A stretch of 64,000 bases of DNA from Branchiostoma floridae (lineage: Eukaryota; Chordata; Leptocardii; Amphioxiformes; Branchiostomatidae): NCBI RefSeq assembly GCF_000003815.2, contig NC_049985.1, positions 11,709,699 to 11,773,698 on the forward strand, read 5' to 3'. The notes beneath the pieces are model-generated. The model had not been told where the DNA came from, ran no database searches, and saw only the letters and a list, made by a program, of their open reading frames with translations. Position 1 is the stretch's first letter; every line of letters begins with the position of its first letter. A program made the translations under genes and the position numbers. Below are positions 2,383 through 61,247 of the stretch, piece after piece.

Positions 2383-3311
2383 TAGCCGCAGAGACGACTG
2401 TTGGCCTATTATCGCTTATACTACTAACGCTCCCGGCCAACAGTCGCAGACTTCAACATTGAACGGAATCAAAAAATCGCCGAATAAACGAGCCGCTGCA
2501 CTAATCCTCGGATCTCTGGGTGTCCCTCACTTCCTAAGAGCCTTACCTAGCCAGCCGGAGCGTTTTCCGGCTCAAAAACCCCCTTCGCTAGCCGCGCCGG
2601 GACTAAATCCACTCCGATCGCACTGTTTATACACGCCGAGTGGCGGACATATTGGAAACACAGGATTAGGCGGCGCGCCGAATCAACCGCGCAAATAAGA
2701 GACTACTGCTCCGATGCGCCATTCCAATGTGGGAAAAGGGGGATAGTCNNNNNNNNNNNNNNNNNNNNNNNNNNNNNNNNNNNNNNNNNNNNNNNNNNNN
2801 NNNNNNNNNNNNNNNNNNNNNNNNNNNNNNNNNNNNNNNNNNNNNNNNAATATTATCAAAAACATATTGAACTCATTGAAAAAATATCCAAAGCCCTTTC
2901 CAGTTTGTTATTCTGCTTGAATATAGTTGATTTGAAATTTCAGGGAACTTTCCAACTTTCCCCACATAGGAATGGCTTATCAGAAAAGTAGTCTCTTATT
3001 CGCGCGGCTGATTCGGCGCGCCGGCTAAGCCGGTATTTCCAATATGGCCGCCACTCGGTGTGTATAAACAGTGCGATCGGAGTGGATTTAGTCCCGGCGC
3101 GGCTAGCGAAGGGGGTTTTTGAGCCGGAAAACGCTCCGGCTGGCTAGGTAAGGCTGTTAGGAAGTGAGGGACACCCAGAGATCCGAGGATTAGTGCAGCG
3201 GCTCGTTTATTCGGCGATTTTTTGATTCCGTTCAATGTTGAAGTCTGCGACTGTTGGCCGGGAGCGTTAGTAGTATAAGCGATAATAGGCCAACAGTCGT
3301 CTCTGCGGCTA
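2383..3311. mobile_element. DNA transposon with long terminal inverted repeats
   Basis: The element begins TAGCCGCAGAGACGACTG and ends with the reverse complement. The inverted arms are about 360 bp each (2383 to about 2745, and about 2950 to 3311), nearly identical over their outer 300 bp. The centre is lost in the 100-N gap. The flanks are a perfect 8-bp duplication, and copy B of the same region lacks the insertion. An 8-bp duplication with TAG ends fits the hAT superfamily or another 8-bp-TSD group. The arms contain a 79-codon open frame on both sides (2459-2698 on +, 2996-3235 on -). It is simply the mirrored repeat and shows no transposase motif. Any transposase would have to lie in the gap. 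Confidence 0.85.
2749..2848. other. Assembly gap, 100 N
   Basis: Exactly 100 unknown bases, the conventional placeholder for a gap of unknown size. It falls in the centre of an inverted-repeat transposon, a structure that commonly breaks assemblies. Confidence 0.98.
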
Positions 3312-11407: not shown

Positions 11408-11892
11408 GTTGAAGGAGATGAGGGACCGTACGGTAATTCCCCGGGGGACGTACAGGGGAGGGGGTGCTGTTCAGATGGAGTGGGTGGCCATGGAAAATAA
11501 TTCGCGAAGAGAAGGACCAATGGAAAATAGACTTGTCCTGGCGGTAGGGCCGCGTTTAGAATGAAAAGAATTAGTCAAGCCATCCGAGTACCGGTCATCC
11601 CTCTGGTAAATAACGCCTAGTCCCTAACTCAAAAGTTATTTTCAAGCAGATGCAAGGCAGATTTACGTCAAGGGGAAGACTTTATGATAAGTGCGTTTTA
11701 TAACCCGACAAGGTCAGAATACTGGGCAGGACTACTTTGAAAGGTAATAAAGGAGACCATATACATCAGGGCACCCCAGCCATCACTGAACAGAGACGTG
11801 CGTCTTGTTAACCTCATTGGTTCTTCCAACTCTGAAAGAAAGACGATGTGGCCTCAGTAAAATGTTAAAGGGCATACATTATGAGAAACAGC

Positions 11893-27000: not shown

Positions 27001-30000
27001 GAAATATTTAGAGTTTCTTAATGTCCTTTTTAATTGTAGTCCATCAAATATGCAAATGAGGTATTGATTAACTTTGCATGTGTTCATTGATCACTTCCTG
27101 TCACTCTACAGTGAACAGGACTGGCATGTGGAAAATGGCCTACTATTTTCTGCCATCATGCAGGAAAATCATTTTGACCTCCAAGTCAACCTGTCCATCC
27201 TGCCAGTCTCTGGTTACAATGCATTACACTGCACTTGGCTCTCTACACAGTGTAGACAGCTGCTCAAACTAATGTTAAGTGCTCAGACTAGAGCATGTTC
27301 ATATTGTCTAACTTCATAAACTCTTTACAATGTTTTGCACTAAGCCTGCTTAGTCATTGTGTGAAATGAGCAGATTCCAAAGATTTTTTCAGACAACTGC
27401 CCCCTATGTGTTAAAGAGAAGCCGTACCTCGACAAATGTTTGGAACTGCTCCTTAACATCATCCTCAGAGTTGGACAGCTGTTTGTGGAGACGGTGCAGT
27501 CCTGTCATCAGCTGCTGGATCTCACTGCTCAGCCCTTCCATGGATAACCTAGGGGTCATTACATACATGACTAACAAACTAGAGGTTTTTTACATTCGTA
27601 GAATTCATAGATTTATTCTATTACATAGGAAGCTTTAGGATTGATGGTAAAGATGAAGGGTTATTCCTGACCTTGCTGCTTCTTCCAGATGTTTCATGTC
27701 ATCTGGGAAAGTCAAGATGGCTGGGTCCTTCTCCTCTGCTTCCTACATGAGCAGTAAACATAGAACCTAACTTACTGTATCTTAGTTTATACCATGCATG
27801 CACAAATATGAACTACAAATCCAAGACTTAGTTGAAAAATACATTATACTGGTAAGTTCCATTTAATACAATTGGTTTCTTTTTGTTTTATCTTGAGTTA
27901 TTTGTGCAGGGTAACACCTAATTGTGATGTTGATGACTGCAACACTTTTAGACGATGAACAAGAAAGCATTAAGATTGCAGATAAGTATCAATCTGGTAA
28001 GATAAATGCTGCTTTACCTGCACCACAAAATGCATCAGGTTCATCTTGGGCTTGTTGGCCCTGGTGTCGACCAATCGCAGAAGAGAGTGGAGCCGGAAGC
28101 CTGCAGCATTGCCAGCATAACCACCCTGCACAAGGATTTAGTTCCATTTTAGATGATAAGACATGCAAAACAGGATTGGTACAGACCCGCCAAATGTGAA
28201 ACAGAAAGGGTTGGAACTCAAAAGAAAGCAAAAAAACTTGAAAGGGGTGTACTACACACTAAAAACAACAAAAGTGTATCATAAATACGGAACATCTTGC
28301 TCATACCCCATTGACTGCCCACAGCTCTGGAATAAATGCAAGATTCTATGATTCTTTTCTGGTCTATTTTTGAATAGTAATAACAAAATTCAAGAAAGAC
28401 AATTTGAAACATTTTTTGGTCACAAAGATCTAGCAATCAAAGAATTTAAGTCTAAGACATCTGTGCACACTGTTGTTTCCACTGAAAAGAGACAAATTTT
28501 ATTTCATCCCTTGGGTACTGGGGAAATGAAAATTTTGATTTGAGGTAAGAACAGCTGCAATGTCCTGATAAGGATGTTTCACCATTCTAATTACCTTGCA
28601 GCTGTAACCATGTATAGAATTTTCCTTTGACCAGATAAATGTCAGTGGACCTCCTACGTATACTATCAGTTGCATAAGTAATTACAGAACCATAGTGTGG
28701 GCTGTGAATTTTAAGCAACAAAAAACGCACTGGAAGAAATGTAAAATCACAAAATTCTAAACAAAGTCTTAGTATAAATTAAACTTCCAACAAACTCTTA
28801 GCACAAAATTTGCAATGTCAGGTAAATTTGCACACGTGAAGGCTGTATTGCACATTGTGTAACAGTAGTGCCAACGACACAAAGGCAACCACACATGTAG
28901 CTGAGGGGTAGCTGAGATATAACTCACAAAGTTGAGGAAGTTTCCAGTCAACAGGATGAGCTGTAGAAGCCGTTGGAGTTTCTTGTTTTCCAGCAGGTCC
29001 TGGCACGCCTGCTGGATGGTACGGATGGACGGCTTCAGGAACGCCATGCTGGCCGAGAACTCCTCCTTCATCACCATGCCTTCCACACGCAGGCGATAAC
29101 TACACGCGGGAACGGACATGACAGGATGTGACCACTAACCCGACTCAGGACAAGTGAAAGTGCTGATCAGGCAAGTGCATGTCCTACCCCACTTGTCAGA
29201 TCAGACAAGTAAGATTTTTCCATGAGAGAGATCTTGATATACTTGTTACCATTCACAGTCTTAGCAATAAGCATTGGTCAATACAGAAAAATAGAGACAA
29301 CAATAAAATAATTCCAATGGTGGAATTGAAAATACAAATATCATTCAAAAAATGTTAGGACAAATGAAAAGTTAGTTGGAGCAAGTAAATTTTCTATGTA
29401 CTTGGCCAATAGAACAAGTGAATTTTAGAAAACTTGTCCAACACTGCATGATATGAAGCGAGTGTTATCTCCATCTCAAGTTGATTTTGTTTCATTTAAG
29501 TCTTAATTATATTTCAGCCATACCATAGGTATGGTGAAATATATTGTATTCGTAATGTTTCTTTCTTTCTCCTGTCAAATCTTCAAATCGATTCAACTCC
29601 GTCGTTCCTGGACCGAATTACTTGAAATTTGGCACAAGGGTAGAGTGGGTCAATACCCAGGTGCTTATTTCTCATTTTTTTCATATCTTCCTTTAAAATG
29701 ATTTTATTCATGTTTTTTGCAATTTTTATGTACATTTTGCCCCCCTGTTCCCTGGTGTTACAGCCAAATGACCTAAAATTTGGTACAGAGGTGCCTTGAT
29801 GATATGCCCACAAAATTCCAAAAACAATTTTGGCATACGGTACAGCAAAATGCTTAATTTTGGCATTTTTTGCGATTTTTTGCCCCAGAAATGACATTTT
29901 TTGGCTCCTATACCCCCATTTTACAACCAAATGATCTGAAATTTGGTATAGGAGTGCCGTCTACATATGCGCACATGAATTCATTGACAACTTTGGCATA

Positions 30001-33000: not shown

Positions 33001-36000
33001 TAGTAAAGGGACTGCATGCATTGTTATATACCACTACCTGATGCATGGGAACTTAACTCAGCTTGTCACAGCTTTATACTCTCCTTAGGAGCAGTCTATG
33101 GTGAAATGTTCAGATCATCCTTGCCAGCTCTATACGTAACAAGTGAAATGTATCTGGAAAATAGCTGTAAAGACTTTATATGCCCAAACAGCAGTCCCCA
33201 CCTTTTATAGCATAAAACCACTTCAGGAGGTCTAAAGAAAACTGCCTTCTGCAGCTACTTGCATCTCAACAAAACCACCTTTACCTTTGTATTGTTAACA
33301 TACTGCCCCTCCGTCAGTTTGCATTCCAGGAAATGCTCCCAAATTTAGGGTTATCAATCCCAATTTGATCTGCTGCTATGACACTTTAAATGGGATATGG
33401 CCATTATTTGCTGAAGAATTACAAGGAGATCCTCCAGTAGACATCGATAAGACAAGTCAAAGGTGATCCCTACCTCCTCCTGTTTTTTCTTCCTCTCTCT
33501 GGTGGGAAGCTCTGTTTGACGGAAAAGCTCTTCTGCTCGGGAGAAATCTGGTTCGATTCTTTCCTCCCACTCACGGATCTTCGTCCAGACATTGTTCTTG
33601 CCTGAAAGTGAAGGTTACAGTTGACAAGGATCATCTGTAGCCCTTTGAATTGACAAAAAGAGGTCTTGATTGGATGATGCATTAAACTAAGCATTCAAAC
33701 ATTCCTTGAGGTGAAAATGCCTCATGAAAATCAAAGGTTCTCTAATTTAGTTTCTCCTATCTTTATCTCCTTCTGACATGTTAAAACATCTTTGAGATGA
33801 TATTATAAAGATGATCATTATCTTCTTTCAAGATATCATATGGAAGGGATATACATATAGCAGTAATAAGCCTCACCTGACATAGCATGTTGTGGGATTT
33901 TAACCCAGTTAACATGCTTTAGCTTCCCTGCTGGTTTGGGTACATTTGGATGTACTGTCTCCTCCTTCCGCTCGATGAATGCAACTGGGATGCTCACACG
34001 TCCGGGGGGAGGGGGCGGCACGGGGGGAGAAGACGGAGCTGACTGAGGGGGATTTCTGGTCAGCAGGGGCGGGGGAGGGCCCGGTGGGGGTGGGGACGGG
34101 GAAGGGGACATTGATGTAGGTATGGGGGAGACGGTTTCTGTGGCAACTACTGCTTGCCCCTCTGCTGTGAAGACAACAATCGTGCCTGGTTGGGAAGACT
34201 GAGGTTGGGTGTAGCTGTAGGTGCCCTCGATCAGGGCATTTGCCGTGCTGATTGGGTACGCGTTTGTGGCAACTGTGGCCGCTAAGGTAGAGGATGCAAT
34301 GGTGACAATTGTTGTACCAGCTATTCCTGTTGATGGGATAACCTGGCCAGTGGTGGTGTACAGCATTGGTGCCGCTGTGGTTGGGTACGCTGATACAGTA
34401 CTCGGGTATGGTACTACTGTGCTTGGGTATGACGCTATAGTACTTGGGTATGACGCTACAGTACTTGGGTACGACGCTACAGTACTTGGGTACGACGCTA
34501 CAGTACTTGGGTATGACGCTATAGTACTTGGGTATGATGCAGGAGCAAGGGCAGAACCAACTGCAGTTGGTACACCGGTGTACCCTGCTTCTGCATAAGA
34601 AGCTTGGTGTCGGCTTTCCTGGATGGTTTCGGAATAGCCAGGTCCTGGGTATGGTGCAGGAACAATGCTTCCACCCCCTTGCCTCTGGATGGCTTCAGCC
34701 CCTGCCTGGTTAGGGACCACTTGAGTCATTGATGTTGTGTGAGTTGCAGAGACTACAGCACTGCCCCCACTGCTTGCCGCCCTGGCATTAGCGTCCCCCA
34801 CCTTGTCTGATATTGGTATGCCCTGGCTTGGCATGGCTGCCTGAATGGGCATACTGGTACCAGAGGGTGCATATTGGACTGCTGGGTGATATGTCGGAGC
34901 CCCCATTTGTGGTCGAGGTGCCGTGGACAAAGGTGCGTTTGCAACGTTGGGCTGTGCTGGATATGGATAACGCACAGGAGGGTACTGCTCTGGGGGGAAC
35001 GGGCCACGTCTGTCGGGCACGTTCATGGAAGACATAGGAATAGCTTCTTCTCCAGTCTCTGTGTATTGCTGCATGAGGGCATTAAAGCTGGCTAACATAC
35101 GGTTAACTGCCTGGGAGGGTTCAGGGGGAGCGGGGACGGAGGCATCGGCCTGTTGGATGGACAGAACTGTTGTTGTAGACGAGGGAAACACGTCCGTTAC
35201 AATAGAACGTGGGAAAGGTGGTCGTGGGCCAATTCTTGTACCAGACAGTTCTGCACTCTCCTCTCCCATCGTGAAGGGAGTTGGTACAGCTCCTGTTGGA
35301 ATTGCCGCTTTCCTATGAACTTGTTGGCCAACTAGTTCCTCTTCTATTCGTAACAACTCATTATAATTGTACCTGTACAGCTCTTCTTCAGTTGGCCTGT
35401 GTGTAACAGGCCCTGTTTCCCTTGGAACACTCCTTACTGTCTCACCCCCAGTTTTTCCACATGATTGACACATCATGGTCCTGACTTTCTCCAGATCTAT
35501 TGTCTTTTTACCCATTCTCTTTCTTTCATTCATGAGAGCCTCTATGTCTTTCATTAGCAGATCAGTCTGTGCCTCTGAGTGAAGGTTCTTTCTGGGTCTT
35601 TCAAGTGTCCTGTTGCCACCGTCGTCGGTTCCCAGCGCTAACGTGTTCTCAATTTGCCATCTTATTTCCCGCACACCCTGCGCCAGTAGCATGTCGGCCT
35701 GGTAACGTCTTTCTAATAACGTGGCCTTCTGTACGAGCCTATCTAGGGTATCCCAGACGACATCACTGAAGGAGTCGGTAGGGTCCAGTTGTAGAAGGTT
35801 GACAAGGATGTTGAGGAATGAGGAAGCCTGAGGACTGTATGAAACCTGAAATAGAAAGAAATTTTAAATGAGAAACTTGCAAGAAAAACCTATACCTAGT
35901 TTAAAATAAGAGAATGCCCGATTAATAATGAAGGTATTTAATGTCAAAGAAGAAACAGTTGAATTGTTACCCTCACAGTTAGTAAATTCAACGTATTTCT

Positions 36001-42000: not shown

Positions 42001-45000
42001 TTTCCTGAAAAATCCAAGAAGCAACAAATAAATTTTGTGTGGTCATAGTTGTTGATTCTGACTGTAACACCTCGAGATCATCTCCATGTCCTTGAGCCAA
42101 ATTGCATATCTTCATCTGTCAGTGCATAGAAGGTAAATGTGATGTTAAGATAGGGGTTAGCTCAATTGGCTCGGACTATTTCAGGGCACTGTTGGCAGCC
42201 ATCTTGTGGATTGATGTGTGCTTTGATAAAGTTGAATGCCTTAGAGAACCATTCTACTTCATGCATCAAAGAAACCATTTTGGGCCTGGAACAACTGAAC
42301 ACAAAGATAAAGATTATCTCACTGGACTCTACAGTAGCTATACTGAAGGAAGAACCTAATGTCTACTCGTACAGTACTGTTTATAGCAAATACAATAATT
42401 GTAGATGTGGGATATCAAATGTAGCTACAAAGCTAATAGTACATCATCCTTGCAAAGGTGGAGTGTTGAGAAAACCTAACAGATGTAACTGACATCATGC
42501 ATGTGGCAGTACGTCCCTACAATGGTGAGTTTGAATGTGGTTTTAACGCAGCTCTCTCAAAATCCAAGAATTTTACTGCTGTCATGGACATTTTGGAATA
42601 CTGAATATTTACTCTGACAATTATGCTTCTCAGATTTTTTTCAGAAAAATAATTAGACAGGGCGAAAATAATTTTTTTCAAAAGGTATCAGGTGAAGGTA
42701 TACGGATTAAATAACACAGTGTTTTTTTTACAATGAATCCCTCCTATGAGTTGTTACTAATGTTTTGAATGAAAGGCATTGTTTTTAGATTGAAATTATG
42801 TGTATGCAGCTCTGAATGGTAATATTTACAGGTTTGTGATAGCAAAACCCGTATTAATTTTCATCAGGACTTAATTTTTTTTTAAATGAAAAAAAAGTGG
42901 ACAGGCAAATCTGAGAAGCAACAAACAAAATTGGTGTGGCCTTACTGATAAAAGTAACAGAATAAGAAATACTCATGCTGACCAAGGTCACTGAGCCACA
43001 CCCTGAAAGCAAGGGATAGGATGTTATTTACATGTATGCATGCAAAATCATGGATGCCAGTTTTCAAATGAACTAACAGTCTTTCTTCATTTGAGTCAGT
43101 TGAAGGTATACTAAAGCAAAATGATATACTACCTAATCCATCCACAGCAGTTACATCCTATGGAATCTGATAAAGGAAACTGCACCACCATGAATTGTTG
43201 AGCGAACGATAGGGTGGGGCCGCAGCCATGCCATAAAATGTCTCATACGCAAAATGCTATTCTCCTTTTACATAACTATGAAAATGTAGGCCTGGGATAA
43301 ATATATGCTGACAGATTGAGCCATTCATCTGCAAATATTTTCATATAGATTTTGATCATTACAAGATTTTTCTTATTTATTTAATGTATGTTTAAACACA
43401 AATTTGCATGAATCCTTACTGGTATTCACAGTTAAGAGGATGTTATCCTGAAGGTTATGTAGGTACACAGGGTGTGAAACGTTCTCATGTTGCATGATGC
43501 ACACTACATTAGATTTATTATGGTTATTAATGATTCTGCATAATTTACTGTCTTCCTATGCTGAAAACTGGATTCATAATAAATCACATGTAGCCCTTGT
43601 GCCTTAGTGACCTCAGTGAAAAGAAAACCCTGTTTGTCACAAAACAATGTTGCAACAATATACACATATCCTATCTTGTGCAAACAAACAAAAATGAACA
43701 GTTTGATCCTAAAGGGAACATTGGAGCATAGACTTCATTGACTAAGTGAAGCATTTCTAACTCTTTGTTTTGCTTGTTTATGATCAGACTTTGCTTAATG
43801 GCTTTTACACAAACAAGGGGTACTGATACCTTATTTTTATGTAACAAAAACTGTGTTAATTTGTAGCTCTGAATTGAAATATTGTGACTTTTGAAATCAC
43901 ATAAAATCCAGATATAATGCCAAGATTTGTTGGTCAAGAATATCATTAAAAGCAGATGAGTAGAAATTTTACATGAATAAGGAATTATCATATCATAGAA
44001 TTCTATGATAATATTGTGGTTACATGACCAAGGAGCCCTGAATTGAAAGGATCATATTTCTGTTATCCTTAATTACAGTAGACATTATCTATATCAGTAT
44101 CACACACAAATATTCTCCACCGAATACAAATCTATATATGAAATGACATGATAACAAACATGTGTCCCTTTGTGTTCTATGAGTCTTACAAATCCTAAAT
44201 AACCAAGTCTCCTGCCTACAAATGATAGGATCTTGATGGAAGTATGGGGCAGGGGCCAGTATCACTCAGCACGCTTCATTATCTTTCATCCCTCACACCG
44301 GCGTCCCCTGGGGGTTCCCATGATTGGACGTTGGCACTGCCGTGATTTGGGAGAGGTCACATTGCCGAGCTGAACCCCCCACTGGTGACAACATCTGATC
44401 CTAGCTGCCAACTAAATGATTATCATTTCTGACTGTGTATAGAACCCTGAATATTGCCACCCATATTTTAGAACTGTAACATGAATGTTTTGTCCACAGA
44501 ATTTTTGCAATGTCCTAGTATTTCAATGGTTATATAGTGAGGGACAAGATTTGCAAAACTGTCACGAAGTGAAATAGTGAAAATCGAGTAAATTACGAAG
44601 TAATGAAATATTCTCACATCAAGCTGTCCAATGTGGTTTGATGCTTGAGTTGGAACGATGGATGGCTTGTAATGTACTTTTCCCCTGTGACTTTGGACTC
44701 TGCATGAAGTCCATGTGTTTATGTATGAGCTAATAAAGTCTCCTGTTATCATCCTGTGCCAAAAAGGTGTAATCACGATGACATTCACAGGTAATTTGAG
44801 CCAGCCTATTGAAAACCCACCCCTGCTAGTGATGTACATGTAGACATTGGCTGATCAAGACAGATGAGTGGTGACACAAATAGGAATATTTTTTAATACG
44901 CCCACCTTTGGCCAGTGTTCTGGTGAATTCCCTGTTTTCGATGATGTATTCCAGCCCGGTGCGCGAGTTCATCACTGCGCGAACACACCCGACACACTCC

Positions 45001-45290
45001 AGTTGGATGTAAGCGTTGGTAAAGCTGGAGAAGCCACGGTCGGACAGACGATCCAGACATTCGAACAAAACGCCCAGCCCATCCAGCTGCAGGAAGTCCT
45101 GCATCCACTCCGCGTCGCAGTGCTCCAGCTTCTTCTTCAATCCGGAGTAGTTCTGTACGGTCGGCGTACGCAGCAAACGGATGCATAGCTCGGGGTCGGC
45201 ATTCTCCAGGTTGGAGAGGGAGTCCCGGTCGAACCCCCCGTGCTGCTCGGCCGGGGGCTTCCGGGGGAGGATCCAACGCCGGCGAAACAT
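20932..45290 (-). CDS. INF2: Inverted formin 2 (INF2) orthologue
   Basis: INF2 nucleates, elongates and severs actin filaments. 21 coding exons (low-high): 44906-45290, 41074-41189, 37423-37582, 36945-36978, 36078-36216, 33877-35845, 33474-33601, 32892-32953, 32009-32111, 31402-31487, 28928-29099, 28018-28125, 27672-27742, 27428-27548, 26780-26944, 26276-26423, 26043-26136, 25538-25744, 24778-24966, 21368-23670 and 20932-21074. They total 6903 bases, with every junction in phase, giving 2300 residues against about 1250 in human INF2. INF2 identity rests on N-terminal matches ([47 protein letters not shown]) and on the WH2/DAD-like [12 protein letters not shown], which matches the INF2 form rather than FHOD or diaphanous. 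Domains: DID about 10-275, FH1 about 885-920, FH2 about 925-1320, DAD about 1325-1350, then a long disordered tail. Confidence 0.92.
21368..23670 (-). CDS. INF2: INF2 giant tail exon with LPPLPDY repeats
   Basis: A single 2303-base exon encodes about 768 residues of low-complexity sequence rich in Ser, Gln, Arg, His and Pro. There are basic clusters ([20 protein letters not shown]) and no known folded domain. Four LPPLPDY motifs lie at about 22360-22510, separated by short SSMGD/ASMGE-type linkers. The C-terminal part has an RERRRSRGW cluster. The exon is in phase with both neighbours (AG|G acceptor side, CCA G| donor side), so it is a genuine coding exon. It largely accounts for the protein being nearly twice the human length. 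The SLiM-like repeats suggest a multivalent SH3 or EVH1-type docking site, but this is a guess. Confidence 0.85.
24778..24966 (-). CDS. INF2: INF2 duplicated tail exon, copy 2
   Basis: Sixty-three codons with [16 protein letters not shown] at the start and [19 protein letters not shown] towards the end. It is clearly homologous to the exon at 25538-25744. Both exons have the same phase at both ends, so either one, both or neither can be included without a frameshift. Confidence 0.85.
25050..25240 (+). mobile_element. LINE 3' end fragment in an INF2 intron
   Basis: The plus strand reads [17 protein letters not shown] and then [11 protein letters not shown]. This is the typical C-terminus of a non-LTR retrotransposon reverse transcriptase (WNSLP followed by V.A.S...F/Y), with a short 3' tail ending in repeated TAATG. 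It sits in the intron between the two duplicated INF2 exons. Confidence 0.6.
25538..25744 (-). CDS. INF2: INF2 duplicated tail exon, copy 1
   Basis: Sixty-nine codons: [18 protein letters not shown] near the start and [19 protein letters not shown] near the end. It aligns over its whole length with 24778-24966. Ser-rich and basic, likely disordered and phosphorylatable. Both flanking introns are phase 2. Confidence 0.85.
26043..26136 (-). CDS. INF2: INF2 WH2/DAD-like exon
   Basis: Encodes [20 protein letters not shown] and a Lys-rich continuation. Human INF2 carries the matching segment in its combined WH2/DAD motif, which binds actin monomers and the N-terminal DID. The conserved spacing of Leu-Leu, Ile-Arg and Gly-Phe is kept. 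This motif is the best single marker for INF2 rather than other formins. Confidence 0.9.
26276..33601 (-). CDS. INF2: INF2 FH2 domain exons
   Basis: Ten exons from 33601 down to 26276 encode the FH2 actin-nucleating domain. Recognisable segments run in order: [100 protein letters not shown], and the terminal helix ending [18 protein letters not shown]. The GNFLN and GF.L..L.KL..TR.NK signatures of FH2 are present, so the domain looks complete. Confidence 0.92.
29140..29447. mobile_element. Degenerate hAT-type MITE copy
   Basis: Shares GGCAAGTGCATGTCCTACC-like, AAGATTTTTCCATGAGAGAG-like and GAATTTTAGAAAACTTGTCC blocks with the element at 40710-41017, in the same order. Its left end is eroded. 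It lies in an INF2 intron. Confidence 0.6.
29515..30810. repeat. Complex interspersed repeat with internal 160-bp tandem units
   Basis: Opens with a small hairpin (CATACCATAGGTATGG) and holds at least three imperfect units of about 160-165 bp, starting near 29745, 29910 and 30070. Each has CCAAATGAcCT and aATTTGGTAcAG-type motifs and most have TTGGCATACGGTACA. The overall ends are uncertain. It looks like a non-autonomous repeat in the intron between INF2 exons 10 and 11. Confidence 0.55.
33877..35845 (-). CDS. INF2: INF2 exon 6: end of DID region, long linker, FH1
   Basis: A 1969-base exon starting [14 protein letters not shown], which corresponds to the end of the N-terminal regulatory region. 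It then encodes a long Pro/Ser/Thr/Tyr-rich linker and a short FH1 ([14 protein letters not shown] and [13 protein letters not shown]) just before the FH2 entry [11 protein letters not shown]. The linker has about eight copies of a YPSTxAS heptapeptide (34394-34545), encoded by a 21-bp tandem repeat. The FH1 is much less proline-dense than in human INF2. Confidence 0.88.
34394..34545 (-). repeat. In-frame 21-bp coding minisatellite (YPSTVAS)
   Basis: Seven to eight copies of a 21-base unit (plus strand TACTTGGGTATGACGCTATAG, with C/T variants) encode YPSTVAS or YPSTIAS in INF2 exon 6. Because the unit is a multiple of three, copy-number change keeps the frame, so length polymorphism is likely. 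Confidence 0.85.
38058..38290 (+). mobile_element. Probable tRNA-derived SINE
   Basis: TAGTCTTGTGGTTAGCA at about 38077 resembles a pol III A box. GGTTCAAATCC at 38114-38124 resembles a B box, at tRNA-like spacing. There is no clean tRNA fold or anticodon stem, so it is a SINE head rather than a tRNA gene. It lies in the large intron between INF2 exons 2 and 3. Confidence 0.55.
38291..40709. other. INF2 intron sequence, nothing coding seen
   Basis: Part of the 3.5-kb intron between the exons at 37423-37582 and 41074-41189. It is AT-rich, with only short open frames lacking splice context. Confidence 0.5.
40710..41017. mobile_element. hAT-type MITE (CAGGGTTGGACAAGT ends)
   Basis: Starts CAGGGTTGGACAAGT and ends ACTTGTCCAACCCTG, a terminal inverted repeat with CAGGG ends as in many hAT elements. 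The flanks share the 7-bp ATACAGA. No transposase is encoded. A degenerate relative lies at 29140-29447. Confidence 0.7.
41675..42046. mobile_element. MITE-like element (GGCCACACCAAATTT ends), copy 1
   Basis: Begins AGGCCACACCAAATTTATTT and ends with the inverted form (AAATAAATTTTGTGTGGTC). A related, partly truncated copy lies in opposite orientation at about 42621-42944 in the same INF2 intron. The copies share TTATTTAAgCCGTATACCTT-like and GAATCCCT.C-like blocks. Confidence 0.6.
42621..42944. mobile_element. MITE-like element (GGCCACACCAAATTT ends), copy 2
   Basis: Inverted relative of 41675-42046. It keeps the GAGAAGCAACAAACAAAATT and GGTGTGGCC right end, but the left end is cut short at GCTTCTCAGA. 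Confidence 0.5.
42945..44905. other. Intron 1 of INF2, nothing coding seen
   Basis: Together with 41190-41674 this is the 3.7-kb first intron. It holds AT-rich sequence and short open frames without splice support. Confidence 0.5.
44906..45290 (-). CDS. INF2: INF2 first coding exon (start of DID)
   Basis: Begins [13 protein letters not shown] and runs into [20 protein letters not shown], then [11 protein letters not shown]. This tracks human INF2 from its [14 protein letters not shown] region. The start is the only in-frame ATG before that block; the N-terminus before the conserved block is short and Arg-rich. It ends AAA G|GTGGGC, joining [11 protein letters not shown] of the next exon. Confidence 0.88.
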
Positions 45291-48734: not shown

Positions 48735-49165
48735 CTATGATGATATGGATGTTATGTTCAGCACCAAGGGCAGGTCAGGCAGTGCGGCTGCAATTTACAA
48801 CAACAGGGGCACAGGTCTGACAGTGCGGATGTTATATTCAGCACTAATTATAAGGACAGATCTGAAAGTGCGGCTGTTATATTCAGCACTAAGGACAGGT
48901 TAGGCAATGCGGGTGTTATGTTCAGCACTAAGGACAGGCCAGGTAGTACGGATGTTATGTTCAGCACCAAGGACAGGTCTGACAGTGCGGATGTAATATT
49001 CTGTACTAAGGGCAGGTAAGACAGTGCGGCTTCAATGCACAATAACAGGGGTAGGTCTGACAGTGCGGATGTTATGTTCAGCATTAAGGACAGGTGTGGC
49101 TGCAAAGTACTGCAACCGGGGCAGGTCTGACAGTGTGGATGTAATGTTCAGCACCGGGGAAAGGT
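48735..49165. repeat. Minisatellite, about 36-38-bp units
   Basis: Roughly eleven imperfect units containing GACAGTGCGGATGTTATGTT followed by CAGCAC(T/C)AAGGACAGG. A minority variant has TGCAATTTACAACAACAGGG. The minus-strand open frame (48848-49105) with LNITSALSDL-type repeats is a by-product of the array. Confidence 0.8.
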
Positions 49166-51882: not shown

Positions 51883-53091
51883 TTAAGGTGGCCGTTTTGT
51901 GCGAGCCTTGCACACGAAGGGATAGGGCTCGTCACAGTAAGCGTCGTTCCAGTGGCCTTGCTTCTTCTTCTTTCCAGTCCAGGAGTTATAGGTCTGTGGA
52001 AAATATTACAAACATCGTGTTATTCAGGCCATTTTTGTATATTCATTTTTGGAATGACATTCATCAGTTTCCTTACTTTTGAAAAGAAGGTCTCTTGCTG
52101 AGCTATTAATGACATTTTGATACGGTGTAAGAAAACCAGCAGAAACGATTTCAATCTTTGATCTGTACATGTATGTACTGAGAGATTCTAGAAATCGTAC
52201 AAAATAAAAACAACAAGAATATACCACATGGCACAGACATAATCTTAATCTAATTCATCTAACCATCAGTACCATATGCATAATTCGCCATCTTCTTGCA
52301 TTATAACAAGTTAAACATTGTGTTATTCTGACCAGCTTTCCCTGTTGTGTTGGGAATGCAGGCCACTTTTGCCAGAGACGAGTAGAAATTAAAGAGCAGC
52401 ACACACCTTGATGTACATAGCGCCACAGTGCTCTCCGCGGAACAGAGACATTATCTTCAAGTTGTTAGGTTCACCAGGGGCCCAGTTCTTGTAGACAACA
52501 CGTGACCCATCCGTCCACATCAATGGTCCTTTCTTGTGTATACCCGTCAGTCCGAGCCAAACCATTTTTTGCCTCCCTTCAGGAGCTAAAATGAAGAAAA
52601 ACGTCTCGAGTTTTGTCAGTCAGCCGGGCACATCTGTAAGAGTCTGACTAGAATAAATTTAGTAAGATAGATACAGCTGCAAAATAGTCATGTTAACGTT
52701 GTCTACAAATGCTAGACAAGAGGAGTATCTATCAATACATATGCATTATTGGGAGTTCGAAGGAAGATTTGCTTTTTTTCTCGTTTGAAGTATGGTTTCT
52801 TTGACATTAAAGGTAAAAGGTGGCAATAAGGATTTCTGACTGGTTGGTTTACGAAAATGTTGGGCCTACTGGTGATAAGGTAAGACTCAAGATCCATCAT
52901 CATTGTTATGTATGACCCACCTTTGGTGACGAAGGATGCAATGAAGTTGTTCTCTTGTGAGTTCTTGACAGACGCAAGATGTGCACTCATTATTTTGCAC
53001 CTATCATTCGCATTACTCCAGCCGACTTTGCGTTTCACCAGCATGTAGCAGTAGTTGTTGTGCTCTTTCCACCCAGGAGAACATCGCAGGG
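51883..53091 (-). CDS. C-type lectin domain exons
   Basis: Three exons (53091-52921, 52585-52407, 51993-51883) encode [72 protein letters not shown] and [21 protein letters not shown] and WND are the calcium-site motifs that favour mannose-type sugars. The extra N-terminal cysteine pair marks a long-form CTLD. The stop follows TKRPP. Confidence 0.93.
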
Positions 53092-56000
53092 CTGTGAACA
53101 ACGAGAGTGTAGTATGGCGTGGGCAAAGGCTCCTAATGGAGTTAAATTGTCAATTTTTTCTCAAATGAATTGCAGCTACATAAACATGACTTCAAACCCA
53201 ATCAAGTCTTTTGGTTCAACTGGACTAACTCAAGTCGAGTGGCAATGAATTTCCCATAGATATTTGTATGTGTCCTGAAAATAGAAAATCCTAGATCCTA
53301 CAAACAACCGTTAAAGGGTACGAGTTCACCATACAATTGACAATTGATAAACAATAACCTACCACGTTGGCAAGTAGGTCCGGTCCAACCAGATGAGCAC
53401 GAACATTTGTAGCGTCCACGCCTGTTCATGCACTTCCCATGCCGGCAAGGCGTGGGCTTCTTCATGCACTCGTTGATATCTGTGACAGACGACAGAGGGG
53501 TTGTTATTGTTGTTAATTTAGGTATAGAAGCTCATCTTTATAATCAGAATTTGCACCGCCAGATTTTAGTCCAAGTTAGACCTTAAGGAAAGAAAAGAAA
53601 GGGGGAAAAGGACAATTAAAACATTTCAGATATAAGAAGTGAAAATAAGAAGACAGGATACCTTGGTGACAGTTCTGTCCAGTCCATCCAGGCGAGCAGG
53701 TACATTTGTATCCGCCATCTTTGTTCACACAGCGTCCATGTTGACAAGGATTCTTGGTACATGCATTTATATCTGTGTGATAATGGTGGAATATCATATC
53801 TGTGTGATAATGCCGTAAATATCTTCTCGTAAAAAGATTTAATTCAGTTGCAGCTTGTCATGATTATCAATTCAAGTCATTTCCATATATAGTCTTGACT
53901 AGTTTACCAAAATGAAGAAAATGTCAAAGTATGGCTTGCCTTTCCTCAAAGAATAATATCCAGCCTTTTACATGAAGGGTTCTCACCTTGCTGACAGTTC
54001 TGCCCAGTCCATCCAGGCAAGCAGATACATTTGTATCCGCCATCTTTGTTCACACAGTGTCCATGAAGACAAGGCTTTCTGGTACACTCATCTGTGTCTG
54101 TGTGAAAATGGTGGAATATCTTCAGTCTTTGAAAAAGCAAATAGTGATCTCGTTTAGATGTAATTCGCAATTCAATGTTTCATTTTGGTTTCCTCAGAAC
54201 TAAGAAGATATTAGCTTGGAATACTTTTCAACCAAGAAAAGCACTATTGGCATTACCAATATCTTTCAAATTATAACAAGATAAAAACTAACCTTGCTGA
54301 CAGTTTTGTCCAGTCCATCCAGGCGAGCAGGTACATTTGTATCCGCCATCTTTGTTAACACAGTGTCCATGTAGACAAGGCTTCCGGGTACACTCGTTTA
54401 TGTCTGTGTGATAATGGTGGGATATCTTTTCATTAAGAAACAAAAACAAAAACGATTCGAGATCATTGAGTTGCAGAAAAGTGCCTTTACGAAAGATTCC
54501 CATATGGGGAAAAAAAGTTTCGCAATTTAAGTGTCGAAAACCAATTTTCAAAATTCAATCCTGATTTTAATTTGGACTTGGTATTTGATAAGTTTCATGT
54601 TGTCTTATATTATTACGTTAAGTTTACACTCGTCAGTTGTTCCACTCGTTTGGTTGTATGACATGTTATGTTATCCGGCTTTGCTTTAATTCGGTTTTGT
54701 TTAACTTGAACCGGCATCAGGACGTTCCTATAACATATTTAGCTTCACAGTAATATACGCTCGTTTGTCTGAGTTCAGACATGGCTTTTGGTCAAATCTT
54801 GGTAAATACAGGAAGTCTGAAAAACAACTTGTTTGGTTTACTTTATTCAAAAGTGAAACCAAACACTACTGTTACTTACTGTAGCAGTTTAGGTTGCATG
54901 GACAACCGGCAACAAAAATGATATTTCCTTACCTGATGAAATTCTGAAAAGGTTCAGTTCTGTGAGATATGGCTGATAGCCCGAGTGGGTCCGAGTGATG
55001 AGGAACCTCCAGTACCGCGCTGTTCCCCGGAACCCGCCGAACTCCTGCCGCCGGTACGTCCCTCTTTGTACGTTAGTAACGGTCAGGACATCCTCCCAGT
55101 TGTACGGACTCCCAACCTGCGACTTTTGCAGCGTGAATGCTGCGATGTCATGGGTGGTGTCACCGTAGTTGTTGACTGCGATGCGGGTCAGAGTTTGGGG
55201 CACTGTGAGATCGAATGCGATGTACCAGTTGTGGTTTTCGTCGGTACCTTGAGGGTTCCAGTAGGTTCCAATATCGCCATCCAAGGCCTTTGCGGCATCA
55301 TATGTCACTCCATTCTTGACCCACGGTGTGCCAGTGGACCCCACAACCCATGACGAGTGCCGTGTTAACCATCCCCAGGAACACGCATTACAACCATCGA
55401 AATGCCTTTCATCTAGTCGAATAAGAAACAGAGGTGCAAATAAGGCATATGATGATGGACAATTCTCACCTTCTTCAGTGCAATTCTGACTGGTTCACAT
55501 TGTACTGCAGGACAGATGTCGCTGCTCACAGTTCAGATGCGGTCCTGAAGAAGGTGACAGACGGTCACCGAGCACTGGTTGTGTAAAAAGAGTCTCTTTA
55601 TTCAGTGACGTACCAACCTGATGAAACTGTTCACGGATAGTAGATCTAGAGTTTGGGGCTTTGTTAACTGTTACATCATATCATATCATATCATATATCA
55701 TATCATATCATATCATATCATATCACATCACATCATATATCATATCATATCATATCATATCATATCATCCTGCCTCATTATGGAAATAACCGTTGTAATT
55801 AGCATGCTCTATCATAATTGATGTTTTCTCTGCCTAACAGCCAAATTACATAATTGTGCGTGAAAAAGTACTATCATTTGGCAAGATTGTGCATCCGTTT
55901 TCATTTTAGATTAAATTCTTTTAGAAAAAAAGCAATACATGAGTGAGACCTGAAAATAATTTGCGATGTGTGTAAGATGCACGCAGCGTTTTAGGAGGGG

Positions 56001-59000
56001 TAGATATAATCTAATGTCTCACGTAATCATAGTAACATTTGTTTAGTGTTTATAGATCACAAAAAAGAGTACCAGAAGAATGAAAACGAGAAGAATTTGA
56101 TGAATGCAGTGTAAACGTCGGCCCTTTGAACGGCAAATCAAGCACACCAACATAGTGCCCAACACCTGCCTGCTATGTTGATAAGGAAGCTCTATACATT
56201 ATGCATGACCATGTAAACTAAATGTAGTAAATGCCTACCAGAGAATACTTGGACTTCACACAGGGTCAGTATTCGGTAAGGTCCGGGAAGACGGACGCCC
56301 ACATAGCGACCCTTCATCCCCTGACAGGAGACGGAAATGGACGGCTGGTTCAGGTTCATTTGATGATTACCTCCACACTTGGGGTTCGCGCTGACCTGGT
56401 CGGAATCCCCGATGTGGATGTTGAAGGGGTTGAGTCGTTTGGAGCAACAGTCCTGGCGGTTGAAGATGACCACTCTGTAGATATTGGAGACAAAGCAGTG
56501 GCATTTGCTTTTCATACACGGTGTATGTTCTAATGAATGTCCTTATACCCCTGTCACATTTGGCAAAAAAGTTTTTTGCACAACAATTATACAAGGTACA
56601 AAGTATGGCCTATATGTGACAGGGACGGTTTTCAGGTGAAAAATACGCACAATTCTCTGTCGATCTTAAATATGGCCGACCTTCCATCGATACGCCTGAA
56701 GATCGTGGATAATGTGACAGGGGTATTTTGAAACCCACTTAATACTTGTAAACCTTTATATATACATAGTCACTTAAATTACTAATGATACTGGAACCTG
56801 CAGATCAAGCTTTTCGTTTATCAGGTATTGACTGATTCATCTACGTAAATTGCCGATTCAAATCAGAACGAAATACATGTATATAGACACGCATATAAGG
56901 CAAATTAATGCTAATGCTAATAATCACACATTCACAGACACACAAAAACTCACACGCCTGCACACACACACACACACACACCTGTCTACAGTGAACACTC
57001 GGGGACTATAAGAAAATGGTCATGTGTGTTTGTGTGTGCGTCTGTCTGAGTGGACTTAATTCTTCGGCATATTTACTGTAATGTCGATATTTGATATTTC
57101 AGACTGTATTTAAAGATTTATCTAATGCTTCAGGATATTCAGTGTATCAATGTCATGTGTATATGTTTATGTGTTTATGTGTGTTTGTCATAGCGCCAAC
57201 AACCGCTGCCTGTGACACTTGTATTGTTCACAATCCGAATAAAGACAAAGTCATTAATGATATATTAACCTAGTGTACATCTATATATACGTACCTGTCA
57301 ATCACATACGATTGCCCAAGATCCACCCACCAGCTCGGGTTAGCCTCCCCCGGGAAACCTTTAGTGTGTGTACAGGAACCATGGTGGTAGTGGGTATCGG
57401 TGTTTCCGTCTACGGCAAGACTCGCAGCCCCGTCCGGACGGCTGCTTGTTTGGAACGCTGTCTTCCCCAGGGCGACATTCATTCCTACCTCAGACGAGAG
57501 GACTGTCATTAGCACTCTAACTTTTCTGTCAATAGTCCAAGCTGAAGAAAATGTTCTATTCCTAACAAAAAATACTATTCCCAGGTGCAGTACACCAAGT
57601 CAACTTAATTGGCCACCAGACATGGCGGCAGAGGGACATGTAAGATAACGATGATTTGACTTTCAAGTGGGACATAATCATGTTTGAATAGGGGAAGGGA
57701 AAGGTGCCGAAAGGCTAATGAACAATGCTTTAAGTATAGAACAAACGAAATATAACCTTATTGTCTGTCCAATGTCACTTATCGCAAGGCCATGTTGACT
57801 TGATTTTGTGTATGACATCCTCTGGGGACCCCAAAACTGATGCGAGCGTGGAAATAAAAAAAGGCCCCCGCCCAAAAATCTCTCTTCATTATGAAATCTA
57901 AGTTGTCAGGAAGACTGAAAAATGACTAAACACACAGTATGGTATTCCAAACACTAACTATAGATTTTTCATTTTGTTCTTTGACTTCGTCTTCTTTGAC
58001 TCTGAAATTTACTTTGATATTCTAAGACACTAAGCTTCTTTTTTTGTGATATATTTTTTGTTTACAAGAAAAAAGCTAACCTTCCTGACAGTTCTGTCCA
58101 GTCCATCCAGGGTAACAGGTACATTTGTATCCGCCATCTTTGTTCACACAGCGTCCATGTTGACAAGGGTTCCTGGTACACTCGTTTATATCTGTATGGT
58201 AATGACGGGATATCTTGTCATTAAAAACAATTAGTGCTCCTTCAGATACACTTAACTATTCAATAATTCTTTTGGTGGGGTTTTACCCATAAGAAATATT
58301 TCTGGAACACTTCTCAACCTTCAGCAAGAAACTGCTAACCTTGCTGACAGTTGTGTCCAGTCCATCCAGGCGAGCAGGTACATTTGTATCCGCCATCTTT
58401 GTTCACACAGCGTCCATGTTGACAAGGGTTCCTGGTACACTCGTTTATATCTGTATGGTAATAACGGGATATCTTGTCATTAAAAACAATTAGTGCTTCT
58501 TCAGATACACTTAACTATTCAATATTTTTTTTTTTTTGGTTTTACCCATAAGAAATATTTCTGGAACACTTTTCAACCTTCAGCAAGAATATGCTAACCT
58601 TGCTTACAGTTCTGTCCAGTCCATCCAGGTGAACAGGTACATTTGTATCCGCCATCTTTGTTCACACAGCGTCCATGTTGACAAGGTTTCCTGGCACAGT
58701 TATTAATGCCTGAATGATAATAATTATTTTATTTTATGGTGTTATTATCAACTGTTTGTCTGTTGTTTTATTAATACAAAAGCAGAATCACTGTCGTACA
58801 AGGAAGGCATGAAGAAAGAAAAGGGAAATCAAATTATCCTTTGACGTTTGTTATTCATATGTAGAGATCATTTGCATAATCAATGATGCCAAATTGTTAA
58901 ATTTGGCCGAAGGACTATCATTAAAATCCTCTCCATCAACGTTAGGTAATTAGAAACGCAACGGGCCAAACAAATCCCTCATGCACATGTATGCTCACCA

Positions 59001-61247
59001 TCCTGTTCAATGCTACTTTCCTGTCTGGTACTGGCTGTGTACGTCTTGTTCCCGTAGACGTCATCTCGCAAACCCTGGGCAACAAATCCAGACGGCTGTG
59101 CCTTCACGGCAAAGCCTCCTGTGGCTGTCAAAGCAGCAATGTCTTTGAATTAGCATGGAAGTACACCTGTATTGGCATAGCTAAAACTAAATTAGTTCAA
59201 AAGAAAAGTTATCATTTTGAATTCAACATCACGAATCACATATATTACAGACAAAAAGGGGGTGAGCACTCGTTACCTGTAATTGGCCCTGAGGTAAGAA
59301 TTTGCGATAAACTTTGCACAATTGAATTGAAGAAAAGAAACAGGATTGTTGTTTGTGATAAGAAAGTGAGAACATACCATACTGACAGTTCTGTCCAGTC
59401 CATCCAGGCGAGCAGGTACATTTGTATCCGCCATCTTTGTTCACACAGCGTCCATGTTCACAGGGGTTCCTGGCACACTCATTCATATCTGTGTGGTCAA
59501 ACATTCCTGTCATGGAACAGCATATCAACTAATTATCGGCTCAGTTTTTCAGCTCACAGAGAGGACGCTATTACTTACAACACAATACAAAAAGGAAACA
59601 GCATCATCTTTAGTTAGAGGAAAGAGGTGACCCACCTTGCTTGCAGTTCTGTCCAGTCCCTCCAGGCGAGCAGGTAGAGCCTTCATCTTTGTTCACACAG
59701 CGTCCATGTCCACATCCATCAATGTCTGTATAATGAGGAAAATAATTATAGTCTCAAATAGTCCCATGCAAAGCAATAGCATTTGAAATGTTATACACAT
59801 AAATGTCTATATCTGCTTTTTGAAAAGCAGCTAACAGGTAATTTGAGCAAGAAAGATAACCAGACCAGACAAAGTATTCTTAATTGTGATGCTTTAAGAA
59901 AGGTACTTACCTTCTGTAAAGTTTGGTCTAGTCCATCCAGGGAAACAATCGCAGCCATAACCAGAATCATGGTTCACACAAGTCCCATGTTGACATGGTT
60001 TTGTGATACAACCATTTATGTCTATGTTGGAGGAACGTATCAAAATGACTTATCTGATGAAGAATTTCAATAACTCGTTAACGTTATATGTATCTGAATA
60101 TAGTACTCACCGCAAAATTTTCTTCTTTATTTTGGCTTATTCATAGAAACTGTCTGTAAGACCTTGTCTGACTTAGCCTGGGTACCATCCGGTTAATAAC
60201 TCGCTCCTATGTTAGCTTCTTCTATATTTATGTAACGTTATGTATCATAAACGACGAGCTGTTATCCGGGTGGTACCCAGGCTATGTCTGACTGTAGATT
60301 CAAGGACATTGCAGAGGATCAAGTTCAAGTTATGCTGACACATGGGTCCTACGCATCTACACAATGTATTAACATTGTTTACCCGTGGTTGATAGGTATG
60401 TGCTCATTGTTGGTAAGGCCATGGTGTTCACAGTGGCGACAGTTGAGCTATTTGACATCGGGAGAGTCGTCATCAGTAGAGGACCTGCCCCCATCAGGGC
60501 GTCCTGCTGATACATTGGGTCATGTGGTGCCTACCACGGGTCAACAAAGTTTGAGTTTATTTCGATATCCTTATGGGGCTAATCCTGTAAAGGTTAAGTC
60601 AGAAGCAAACTAAGATACGAAATGTACATACATTTACACCGATATGTACAGGTGTCAGAGAATGACAATGCACACAAAAAATACGAGAAAAATAAAAAGT
60701 CATTCAACTTTTACGATATCAATCATTTGCCGGTGAACTATTAACCATTGGATACGGTCTCTACACCAGTAGGTAGTCGATTCCAGAGCTTTACAGATCT
60801 AGGCACAATCGTCCTCTTTCCATTCTTACTTTTGGGTTTGGGTAATAAAAATTGTACAATAACAGTCTTGTTACATGCCATCGCGTTCGTGCATTGAAAC
60901 GTTGTATTTGTTGGTGTCCCTCGATTCGCCTGTAGCAACAATTCTAAACAGTAGTTTCAAAGTACGTAAACTTGGTTTTATATTTTACCAGTATGTAGCC
61001 TAAATCCACCATGTCAATTTGGAAAGTTACATTTAGATATCACTATTGTTGTCTGATATATGGGAAGTTCATAATCAATCAAAGAAGACGGTAATACTTT
61101 GGCCCACCTTGCCTCCAGGTAAGAGATGAGTTGCCAGGACCACAGTAATGACAACTGTGACTACCACAAGGAGACCACAACCGGTACCCAGCGCTAGCCA
61201 GAAGACTCTGTTAGATGTCAACTTTTGCCACATGTCCCAGACGCGCT
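51883..61247 (-). CDS. Type II membrane lectin: TM, EGFs, FTP, F5/8C, EGFs, CTLD (5' partial)
   Basis: Eighteen exons in consistent phase, about 912 residues. From the N-terminal side: TM 61113-61247; EGFs 59911-60021, 59636-59725, 59378-59488; linker 58999-59124; EGFs 58599-58709, 58340-58450, 58081-58191; FTP 57295-57502 and 56239-56474; F5/8C 54933-55412; EGFs 54293-54403, 53987-54097, 53662-53772, 53363-53479; CTLD 52921-53091, 52407-52585, 51883-51993. Nearly all module borders are phase 1, the classic exon-shuffling phase. With a single TM segment near the N-terminus and all extracellular modules after it, the topology is type II, with the C-type lectin outermost. The cytoplasmic exon and start codon lie upstream and were not identified. 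Likely role: binding fucose- or mannose-bearing glycans at the cell surface, in adhesion or innate recognition (inference). Confidence 0.85.
53363..54403 (-). CDS. Second EGF cluster, four repeats
   Basis: Four phase-1 exons (54293-54403, 53987-54097, 53662-53772, 53363-53479), each one EGF module of 37-39 residues. Three share the core [13 protein letters not shown] and WTGQNC; the last ([17 protein letters not shown]) is divergent. DIN(E/A)C and DTDEC starts are of the calcium-binding type, though the Asp/Asn in the later consensus position is replaced by the KDGGYKC sequence. Confidence 0.9.
54933..55412 (-). CDS. F5/8 type C (discoidin) domain exon
   Basis: One 480-base exon encodes a full domain: [46 protein letters not shown], then [20 protein letters not shown]. 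This is the discoidin jellyroll pattern of ALDGD..TYW, IxFDL, and Y.RF.I...... at the end. A short Cys-containing lead ([11 protein letters not shown]) precedes it. Such domains bind lipids or glycans. Confidence 0.88.
55677..55768. repeat. (ATATC)n-type simple repeat
   Basis: About 18 TCATA/ATATC pentamer units with minor variants, in the intron between the FTP and F5/8C exons. Confidence 0.92.
56239..57502 (-). CDS. Fucolectin (FTP) domain exons
   Basis: Two exons (57502-57295, 56474-56239) encode [78 protein letters not shown], and a final [10 protein letters not shown] with [10 protein letters not shown]. This matches the eel fucolectin/tachylectin-4/pentraxin-1 family. The His and the RxD-type Arg residues plus the CC pair of the fucose and calcium sites appear present (HYHHGS, NRQDCC). 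It probably binds terminal fucose. Confidence 0.92.
57775..57870. mobile_element. Fragment of the GGCCATGTTGATTTGATT element family
   Basis: GGCCATGTTGACTTGATTTT, then GTATGACATCCTCTGGGGAC and GATGCGAGCGTGG. Same terminal sequence as 7328-7793 and 395-452; only one arm is recognisable. It sits in a lectin-gene intron. Confidence 0.5.
58081..58709 (-). CDS. First EGF cluster, downstream three repeats
   Basis: Three EGF exons (58599-58709, 58340-58450, 58081-58191) with [15 protein letters not shown] and WTGxNC. The first begins [10 protein letters not shown] and lacks the acidic N-terminal residue of the others. The exon-plus-intron units starting at 58081 and 58340 are both 259 bp and nearly identical, including intron sequence, so this part arose by recent tandem duplication. 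Confidence 0.9.
58999..59124 (-). CDS. Possible linker exon between EGF repeats
   Basis: Forty-two codons ([20 protein letters not shown] and onward to QESSIEQD), open throughout, with an acceptor (GACAG|CC) and donor (G|GTGAGC), both phase 1 like the neighbouring EGF exons. It has no cysteine and no known motif, with one NKT glycosylation sequon. It could be a real spacer exon, an alternative exon or a chance match. Confidence 0.45.
59378..60021 (-). CDS. First EGF cluster, upstream three repeats (two degenerate)
   Basis: Exons 59911-60021, 59636-59725 and 59378-59488. The first reads [15 protein letters not shown] and ends WTRPNFTE: the sixth cysteine is Phe. The second is only 30 codons ([19 protein letters not shown] and then GGTGQNC), has four of six cysteines and a Trp-to-Gly change. 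The third ([15 protein letters not shown]) is complete. All keep phase-1 borders, so the frame is open through the degenerate modules. Confidence 0.8.
60174..60284. mobile_element. 111-bp MITE with 9-bp target duplication
   Basis: Inverted ends TAGCCTGGGTACCATCCGG and CCGGGTGGTACCCAGGCTA (one mismatch), flanked by the 9-bp direct repeat TGTCTGACT (60165-60173 and 60285-60293). It lies in the intron after the TM exon. Confidence 0.8.
60740..60941 (-). mobile_element. LINE reverse-transcriptase C-terminal fragment
   Basis: The minus strand reads [20 protein letters not shown]. This resembles the (R)xxxxWNxLPxxV tail common to CR1/L2/Rex-type retrotransposon proteins. Truncated; in the intron between the TM exon and the first EGF exon. 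Confidence 0.6.
61113..61247 (-). CDS. Transmembrane exon of the lectin gene
   Basis: Encodes [15 protein letters not shown], then the hydrophobic [20 protein letters not shown] and LATHLLPGG. The basic residues before and the EGF modules after the hydrophobic span indicate type II orientation. The first two bases complete a codon from an unidentified upstream exon. A GT donor at 61107 would end in phase 0, while the next EGF exon needs phase 1. A GC donor after 61113 (GAG|GCAAGG) gives the right phase. Confidence 0.7.

Follow-up and report, generated by a model that had tools for sequence, protein, structure and literature searches.

A putative composite membrane lectin gene of Branchiostoma floridae combining F-type lectin, F5/8 type C, EGF and C-type lectin domains

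Results and Discussion

Gene Structure and Domain Composition

A 64,000-nucleotide stretch of the Branchiostoma floridae genome (contig NC_049985.1, positions 11,709,699 to 11,773,698; hereafter the window, with positions numbered from its first letter) probably carries a real lineage-specific mosaic lectin gene on its minus strand. Between 61247 and 51883, a chain of 19 exons encodes, in this order, a transmembrane (TM) segment, a stalk, three EGF repeats (EGF1-3), a 144-base exon, three more EGF repeats (EGF4-6), an F-type lectin domain (FTP), an F5/8 type C domain (F5/8C), four EGF repeats (EGF7-10) and a long-form C-type lectin domain. The whole is best explained by one protein-coding gene for a type II mosaic membrane lectin, a reading that we hold with reasonable confidence, and judging from the sequence it is likely that all exons are joined in one transcript.

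The coordinates proposed in an initial annotation of the window were reproduced to the base. The chain runs from the first base of the TM exon (61247) to the last base of a TAA stop codon (51883), and the joined product has 969 residues (codons), with the terminal codon as its sole stop. All 18 introns were of the GT-AG type, with lengths of 147 to 826 bases, and all junctions were phase-compatible. Since the exon borders were picked to fit, the open frame and the phase match are partly obtained by construction, which does not apply to the domain matches. The initial annotation described one open frame; a stop-free chain of domains in the proposed order was indeed recovered, but it is spliced from 19 exons.

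Searching the whole product against Pfam gave EGF_CA (1e-53, nine matched stretches vs. ten EGF exons, with EGF also matched), F5_F8_type_C_2 (2e-32, best stretch within the FTP domain), F5_F8_type_C (8.4e-23, best stretch within the F5/8C domain) and Lectin_C (3.2e-19). The FTP, F5/8C and C-type domains each also scored when run alone. Phase 1 was found in 15 of the 18 introns, including the 14 borders between domains; of the other three, the TM/stalk intron and the final intron of the C-type lectin domain are phase 0, and the one inside FTP is phase 2. Phase-1 borders, claimed to occur throughout, are thus a property of all domain borders but not of all introns. These symmetric borders together with the domain matches support an exon-shuffled mosaic, and the proposal of a composite membrane lectin that arose by exon shuffling is supported on the same grounds. 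No paralogue better than E 1.9 was found by tblastn of the model against the rest of the window, and Rfam at the gathering threshold gave no match in the whole window.

Lectin and F5/8 Type C Domains

The FTP domain is encoded by two exons. The first (57295..57502) contains the cation motif AVDGN, which agrees with the h2DGx pattern, and the fucose His in SCTHT, while the second (56239..56474) contains both Arg residues and the Cys pair in NRQDCCSKR. An alternative start of the first exon at 57541 keeps the frame, with a pyrimidine tract of 8/11 vs. 4/11. Among solved chains, the domain matched FBP32 at 1.4e-49 and 1k12 (presumably eel fucolectin AAA) at 1.5e-21, and the alignment to both showed that the fucose His/Arg/Arg triad and the Cys pair are retained. 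The fucose motif is printed as HX24RXDX4(R/K) in the excerpt of PMC5712786. RQDCCSKR fits RXDX4R, while the spacing from His to the first Arg is 29 residues, compared with 26 in the 1k12 and FBP32 rows; the 1k12 row itself therefore has 26 and not the printed 24. By these residues, the domain should bind terminal L-fucose via His/Arg/Arg.

The C-type lectin domain is split over three exons, located at 52921..53091 (first three of six Cys), 52407..52585 (VWLGLTG, EPN and GEHC) and 51883..51993 (HWND, the last two Cys and the stop codon). Run alone, it matched Lectin_C at 4.9e-20 over profile positions 3-106 of 107, and it matched 205 solved sequences at E ≤ 0.001. Six Cys were located by eye (RCSPGW, YCYM, DRCK, GEHC, AYCD and FVCK), as well as EPN, the Glu in GEHC and the WND in HWND, which we take to form calcium site 2 by analogy with mannose-binding protein. 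The domain should accordingly be able to bind mannose, fucose or N-acetylglucosamine (GlcNAc) through calcium. As for the earlier suggestion that one receptor could read fucose and mannose together, the site residues are present in both lectin domains, and binding itself is a prediction.

The F5/8C domain is encoded by a single 480-base exon (54933..55412, phase 1-1). Alone, it matched PF00754 at 1.5e-11 and PF22633 at 4.9e-11, and its score of 45 bits is above the curated cut-off of 28.2, so that the assignment may be regarded as secure by Pfam. The best match to the sequence of a solved structure had an E of only 0.28, and AlphaFold2 with single-sequence input gave a mean predicted local distance difference test (pLDDT) score of 37.7. 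NCBIfam returned one sub-threshold match, NADase_discoid (20.6 bits vs. a cut-off of 38), which was rejected. FTP and F5/8C each match both F5/8 Pfam models, and the excerpt of PMC5712786 gives F-type and F5/8C domains a common jelly-roll fold. The three different folds of the initial annotation are therefore three binding domains but two folds.

EGF Repeats

The EGF repeats annotated upstream of FTP comprise six exons; the first two are degenerate, and the 144-base exon is interposed between EGF3 and EGF4. EGF1 (59911..60021) has its sixth Cys replaced by Phe and carries a hydroxylation-type motif. EGF2 (59636..59725) has 90 bases vs. 111, being seven residues short with four Cys. EGF3 (59378..59488) is of the calcium-binding type (DMNEC) and has an EGF_CA match. 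EGF4 (58599..58709), which starts INNC and lacks the calcium Glu, is followed by EGF5 (58340..58450) and EGF6 (58081..58191), both of the calcium-binding type. Downstream of F5/8C, EGF7 (54293..54403), with the best EGF_CA stretch (residues 667-699), and EGF8 (53987..54097; DTDEC) are of the calcium-binding type; EGF9 (53662..53772) has DINAC without the calcium Glu and the best PF00008 stretch (residues 745-773), and EGF10 (53363..53479), with 117 bases, differs most by eye among the four C-terminal repeats. Overall, the calcium-binding start [DN]x[DN][EQ]C was found in 6/10 EGF repeats and Cx[DN]x4[FY]xCxC in 9/10.

Pairwise nucleotide identities were calculated for the 111-base exons, leaving out EGF2 and EGF10, which have other lengths. 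The seven exons EGF3-EGF9 are 83.8-95.5% identical (21 pairs), and the 12 pairs spanning FTP-F5/8C are still 83.8-93.7% identical, with the maximum for EGF5/EGF7 and EGF5/EGF9. EGF1 falls outside these ranges, at 63.1-68.5% identity to the other 111-base exons. Either FTP and F5/8C sit inside what may formerly have been a single EGF array, or the EGF arrays may have been copied from each other; by either route, similar EGF repeats on both sides are easier to picture within one gene.

EGF4-EGF6 and their introns form a tandem array (58065-58698) with a 259-base unit, 2.4 copies and 93% matches. This exon-plus-intron array is a possible site of copy-number change.

N-Terminal Region and Exons without a Domain

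The TM exon (61108..61247; phase 1 in, phase 0 out) encodes a 29-residue hydrophobic run, with an in-frame ATG nine codons ahead of it, so that the run is preceded by MWQKLTSNR. Because of the length of the run, the segment was taken as a putative N-terminal signal anchor. Translation would start either at this ATG or in a further upstream exon. A signal-peptide-like candidate upstream, at 62071-61873, found no support as the absent first exon.

The stalk exon (60383..60530; phase 0 in, phase 1 out) is rich in Ser, Thr and Met, contains one NSS sequon and no domain, and was assigned with moderate confidence. Its phases are those required to connect the TM exon to EGF1, which gives it mild support. 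The 144-base exon (58999..59142; 48 codons, phase 1-1) has one NKT sequon and is tentative. It gave no Pfam match, and skipping it would preserve the frame. A codon log-odds test, for which the formin and helicase frames served as training set, was discarded, as it did not separate the true frame from the other two even for secure exons. Since the test is blind to frame, its score measures composition, and the high values of the stalk and 144-base exons were not used. Opposite EGF3 and the 144-base exon, the plus strand has a 223-codon stop-free frame (58946-59617), probably by chance.

One Gene or Several

Some observations weigh against one intact lectin gene. The first exon upstream of the TM exon was not identified and the start codon is not fixed, and the stalk and 144-base exons combine weak splice sites with the lack of a domain. 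Four donors (stalk, FTP second exon, EGF9 and EGF10) score 6/9 only, EGF1 and EGF2 are degenerate as described above, nine polyadenylation hexamers occur inside the gene (raw count), and motifs are no proof of ligand specificity. In the EGF4-6 array, moreover, the exons (EGF4/EGF5 89.2% and EGF5/EGF6 95.5% identical) have diverged to a similar extent as the introns (92.7%), so that selection there is not clear. Signal-peptide-like first exons were sought in two scans. Scan 1 required a donor of at least 7/9 and a 10-residue hydrophobicity of 2.2, with no charge rule, and gave one minus-strand candidate within the gene span (59403-59277, in another frame over EGF3), where about 0.3 was expected; none was found upstream or on the plus strand, and the window rate was 0.31 per 10 kb. 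This candidate also counts against a single gene. In scan 2 (phase-1 donor of at least 6/9, hydrophobicity 1.9) it is eliminated by a charge rule that forbids a net negative n-region, a rule added after the result of scan 1 was known. Within the gene, scan 2 gave no candidate vs. 1.4 expected from the window rate; it gave one upstream (the 62071-61873 candidate mentioned above) and one on the plus strand, and the window total for both strands was 20. Run without a positive control, the scans decide little between one gene and several.

The chain could accordingly consist of at least two adjacent same-strand genes read together, for example TM-EGF(-FTP) and F5/8C-EGF-C-type lectin, or its FTP and F5/8C exons could be isoform-specific, a possibility that we regard as unlikely. 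Matching phases are not enough to rule it out, because any set of exons with phase 1 at both ends can be spliced together in frame. Besides the hydrophobic first-exon candidate at 59403-59277, polyadenylation hexamers in the 826-base intron that precedes F5/8C (at 55602) and in the following intron are in its favor, and so are the known faults of lancelet annotation: according to the excerpt of PMC6071037, errors of gene prediction accounted for differences in domain architecture among lancelet species, and many genes of the first B. floridae annotation were said to be fused or missed, while some lancelet-specific architectures appear correctly predicted. A single gene is favored by gaps that never exceed 826 bases and by the EGF exons that flank FTP-F5/8C as close copies on either side; the lack of an internal first exon in scan 2, though 1.4 were expected, adds little. 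It is far less probable that the gene is decaying, that is, of mosaic-lectin ancestry with the full protein no longer made. The losses in EGF1 (one Cys) and EGF2 (seven residues, two Cys), the four donors at 6/9 and the equal divergence of exons and introns in the EGF4-6 array would be in line with decay, but the chain has no frameshift or stop, GT-AG is kept in 18/18 introns and the key residues are intact in both lectin sites. In addition, the proportion of nonsynonymous differences (pN) was lower than that of synonymous differences (pS) in 28/28 pairs among the eight 111-base EGF exons, pairs that are not independent.

A further alternative concerns the role of the protein and is compatible with the gene structure preferred here. 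The same gene might encode a matrix or adhesion protein for self glycans instead of an immune receptor, which seems somewhat unlikely, if less so than a set of adjacent genes. EGF, F5/8C and lectin modules are common in matrix and adhesion proteins as well. Nothing decisive speaks against this alternative, as the canonical sites would suit self or foreign glycans.

Neighboring Features of the Window

Downstream of the lectin gene, a diaphanous-type formin gene lies on the minus strand at 21297-45290, with Pfam matches to Drf_GBD (44829-45290) and FH2 (28772-29134). Two frames of this region, a proline-rich one at 33839-35863 and another at 21297-23747, had no Pfam match and were assigned to the formin by position only. 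Between both genes, a tandem array of 39-base units (48747-49095; 8.7 copies, 70% matches) has long open frames on both strands. Minus-strand frames at 8803-10053 and 10703-11470 matched Helicase_C and DEAD; by impression, they belong either to a RecQ-like helicase or to a mobile element that carries a helicase. An inverted repeat at 2383-3311, with 365-base arms that are 95% complementary and 199 bases apart around a run of N, is either a fold-back element or an assembly artefact.

Proposed Protein and Comparison with Known Proteins

The single-gene reading would give a type II (N-in) membrane lectin anchored by its N-terminal hydrophobic segment. The stalk and the two EGF arrays would hold out FTP beside F5/8C and then the C-type domain at the far end. 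FTP would bind terminal L-fucose, the C-type domain would bind mannose, fucose or GlcNAc in a calcium-dependent manner, and F5/8C might add a further contact; several weak sites together could provide avidity on a glycan-rich surface. Such a protein may act as an innate-immune recognition or adhesion receptor, topology, glycan binding and role all being inferred here. More speculative, and rather doubtful, is a single-chain two-key glycan receptor with fucose and mannose sites at a set spacing on EGF rods, in which rod length would shift by duplication of the 259-base unit and individuals could differ in reach.

The exact domain order was not met in the open-licence literature searched. The remark in the initial annotation that no vertebrate protein is known to have it carries little weight, since the DNA is from a lancelet and since teleosts and coelacanth are reported, in the excerpt of PMC5712786, to have F-type domains in association with C-type lectin and FA58C domains. 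The same excerpt lists C-type lectin, FA58C, CCP and TM domains as frequent eukaryotic partners of F-type domains, naming amphioxus and Drosophila, and describes F-type domains as expanded in hemichordates and cephalochordates, with more than 70 clusters in B. floridae, and as absent from urochordates and eutherian mammals. For B. floridae, 300 C-type lectin genes that also encode other domains are reported (excerpt of PMC10140915), and amphioxus innate receptors are described as rich in novel domain combinations (PMC2575513, a text in which neither "lectin" nor "EGF" occurs).

Several solved or well-known proteins resemble parts of the lancelet model. 1k12 and FBP32 (3cqo) share its F-type domain, including the His/Arg/Arg triad and the Cys pair, but consist of F-type domains only. 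The C-type domains of asialoglycoprotein receptor 1 and CLEC10A were among the best 60 of the 205 solved-sequence matches. These receptors have an N-terminal anchor, a coiled-coil stalk and a C-terminal C-type domain, a layout that the predicted lancelet protein resembles, except that it carries EGF repeats instead of the coiled coil and has two additional binding domains. MFGE8 and EDIL3 also combine EGF with F5/8C; in contrast, they are secreted, have two F5/8C domains and lack lectin domains.

Other proteins of similar composition come from the literature. Drosophila furrowed and CG9095 likewise have F-type and C-type lectin domains and a predicted TM segment, but carry complement-control repeats, and neither EGF nor F5/8C is mentioned for them in the excerpt of PMC5712786. 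A lancelet clade of fucolectin-CTLD-CTLD-CUB-APEC proteins (CTLD, C-type lectin-like domain), most sequences of which are dispensable in the pangenome, also joins fucolectin and C-type lectin in one chain; it differs by its CUB, APEC and two C-type domains, and the excerpt of PMC12373286 does not mention EGF, F5/8C or TM for it. If all exons belong to one transcript, the gene would be a compact case of how standard exons are assembled into composite glycan receptors in a lineage reliant on innate immunity. Both of its lectin sites appear to be intact, in contrast to CG9095, whose C-type domain is said in the excerpt of PMC5712786 to be without the sugar residues that the lancelet gene has. Knowledge of the component families would stay unchanged. 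The gene arranges familiar modules in an uncommon order, and composites of this type have already been described in lancelets and fish.

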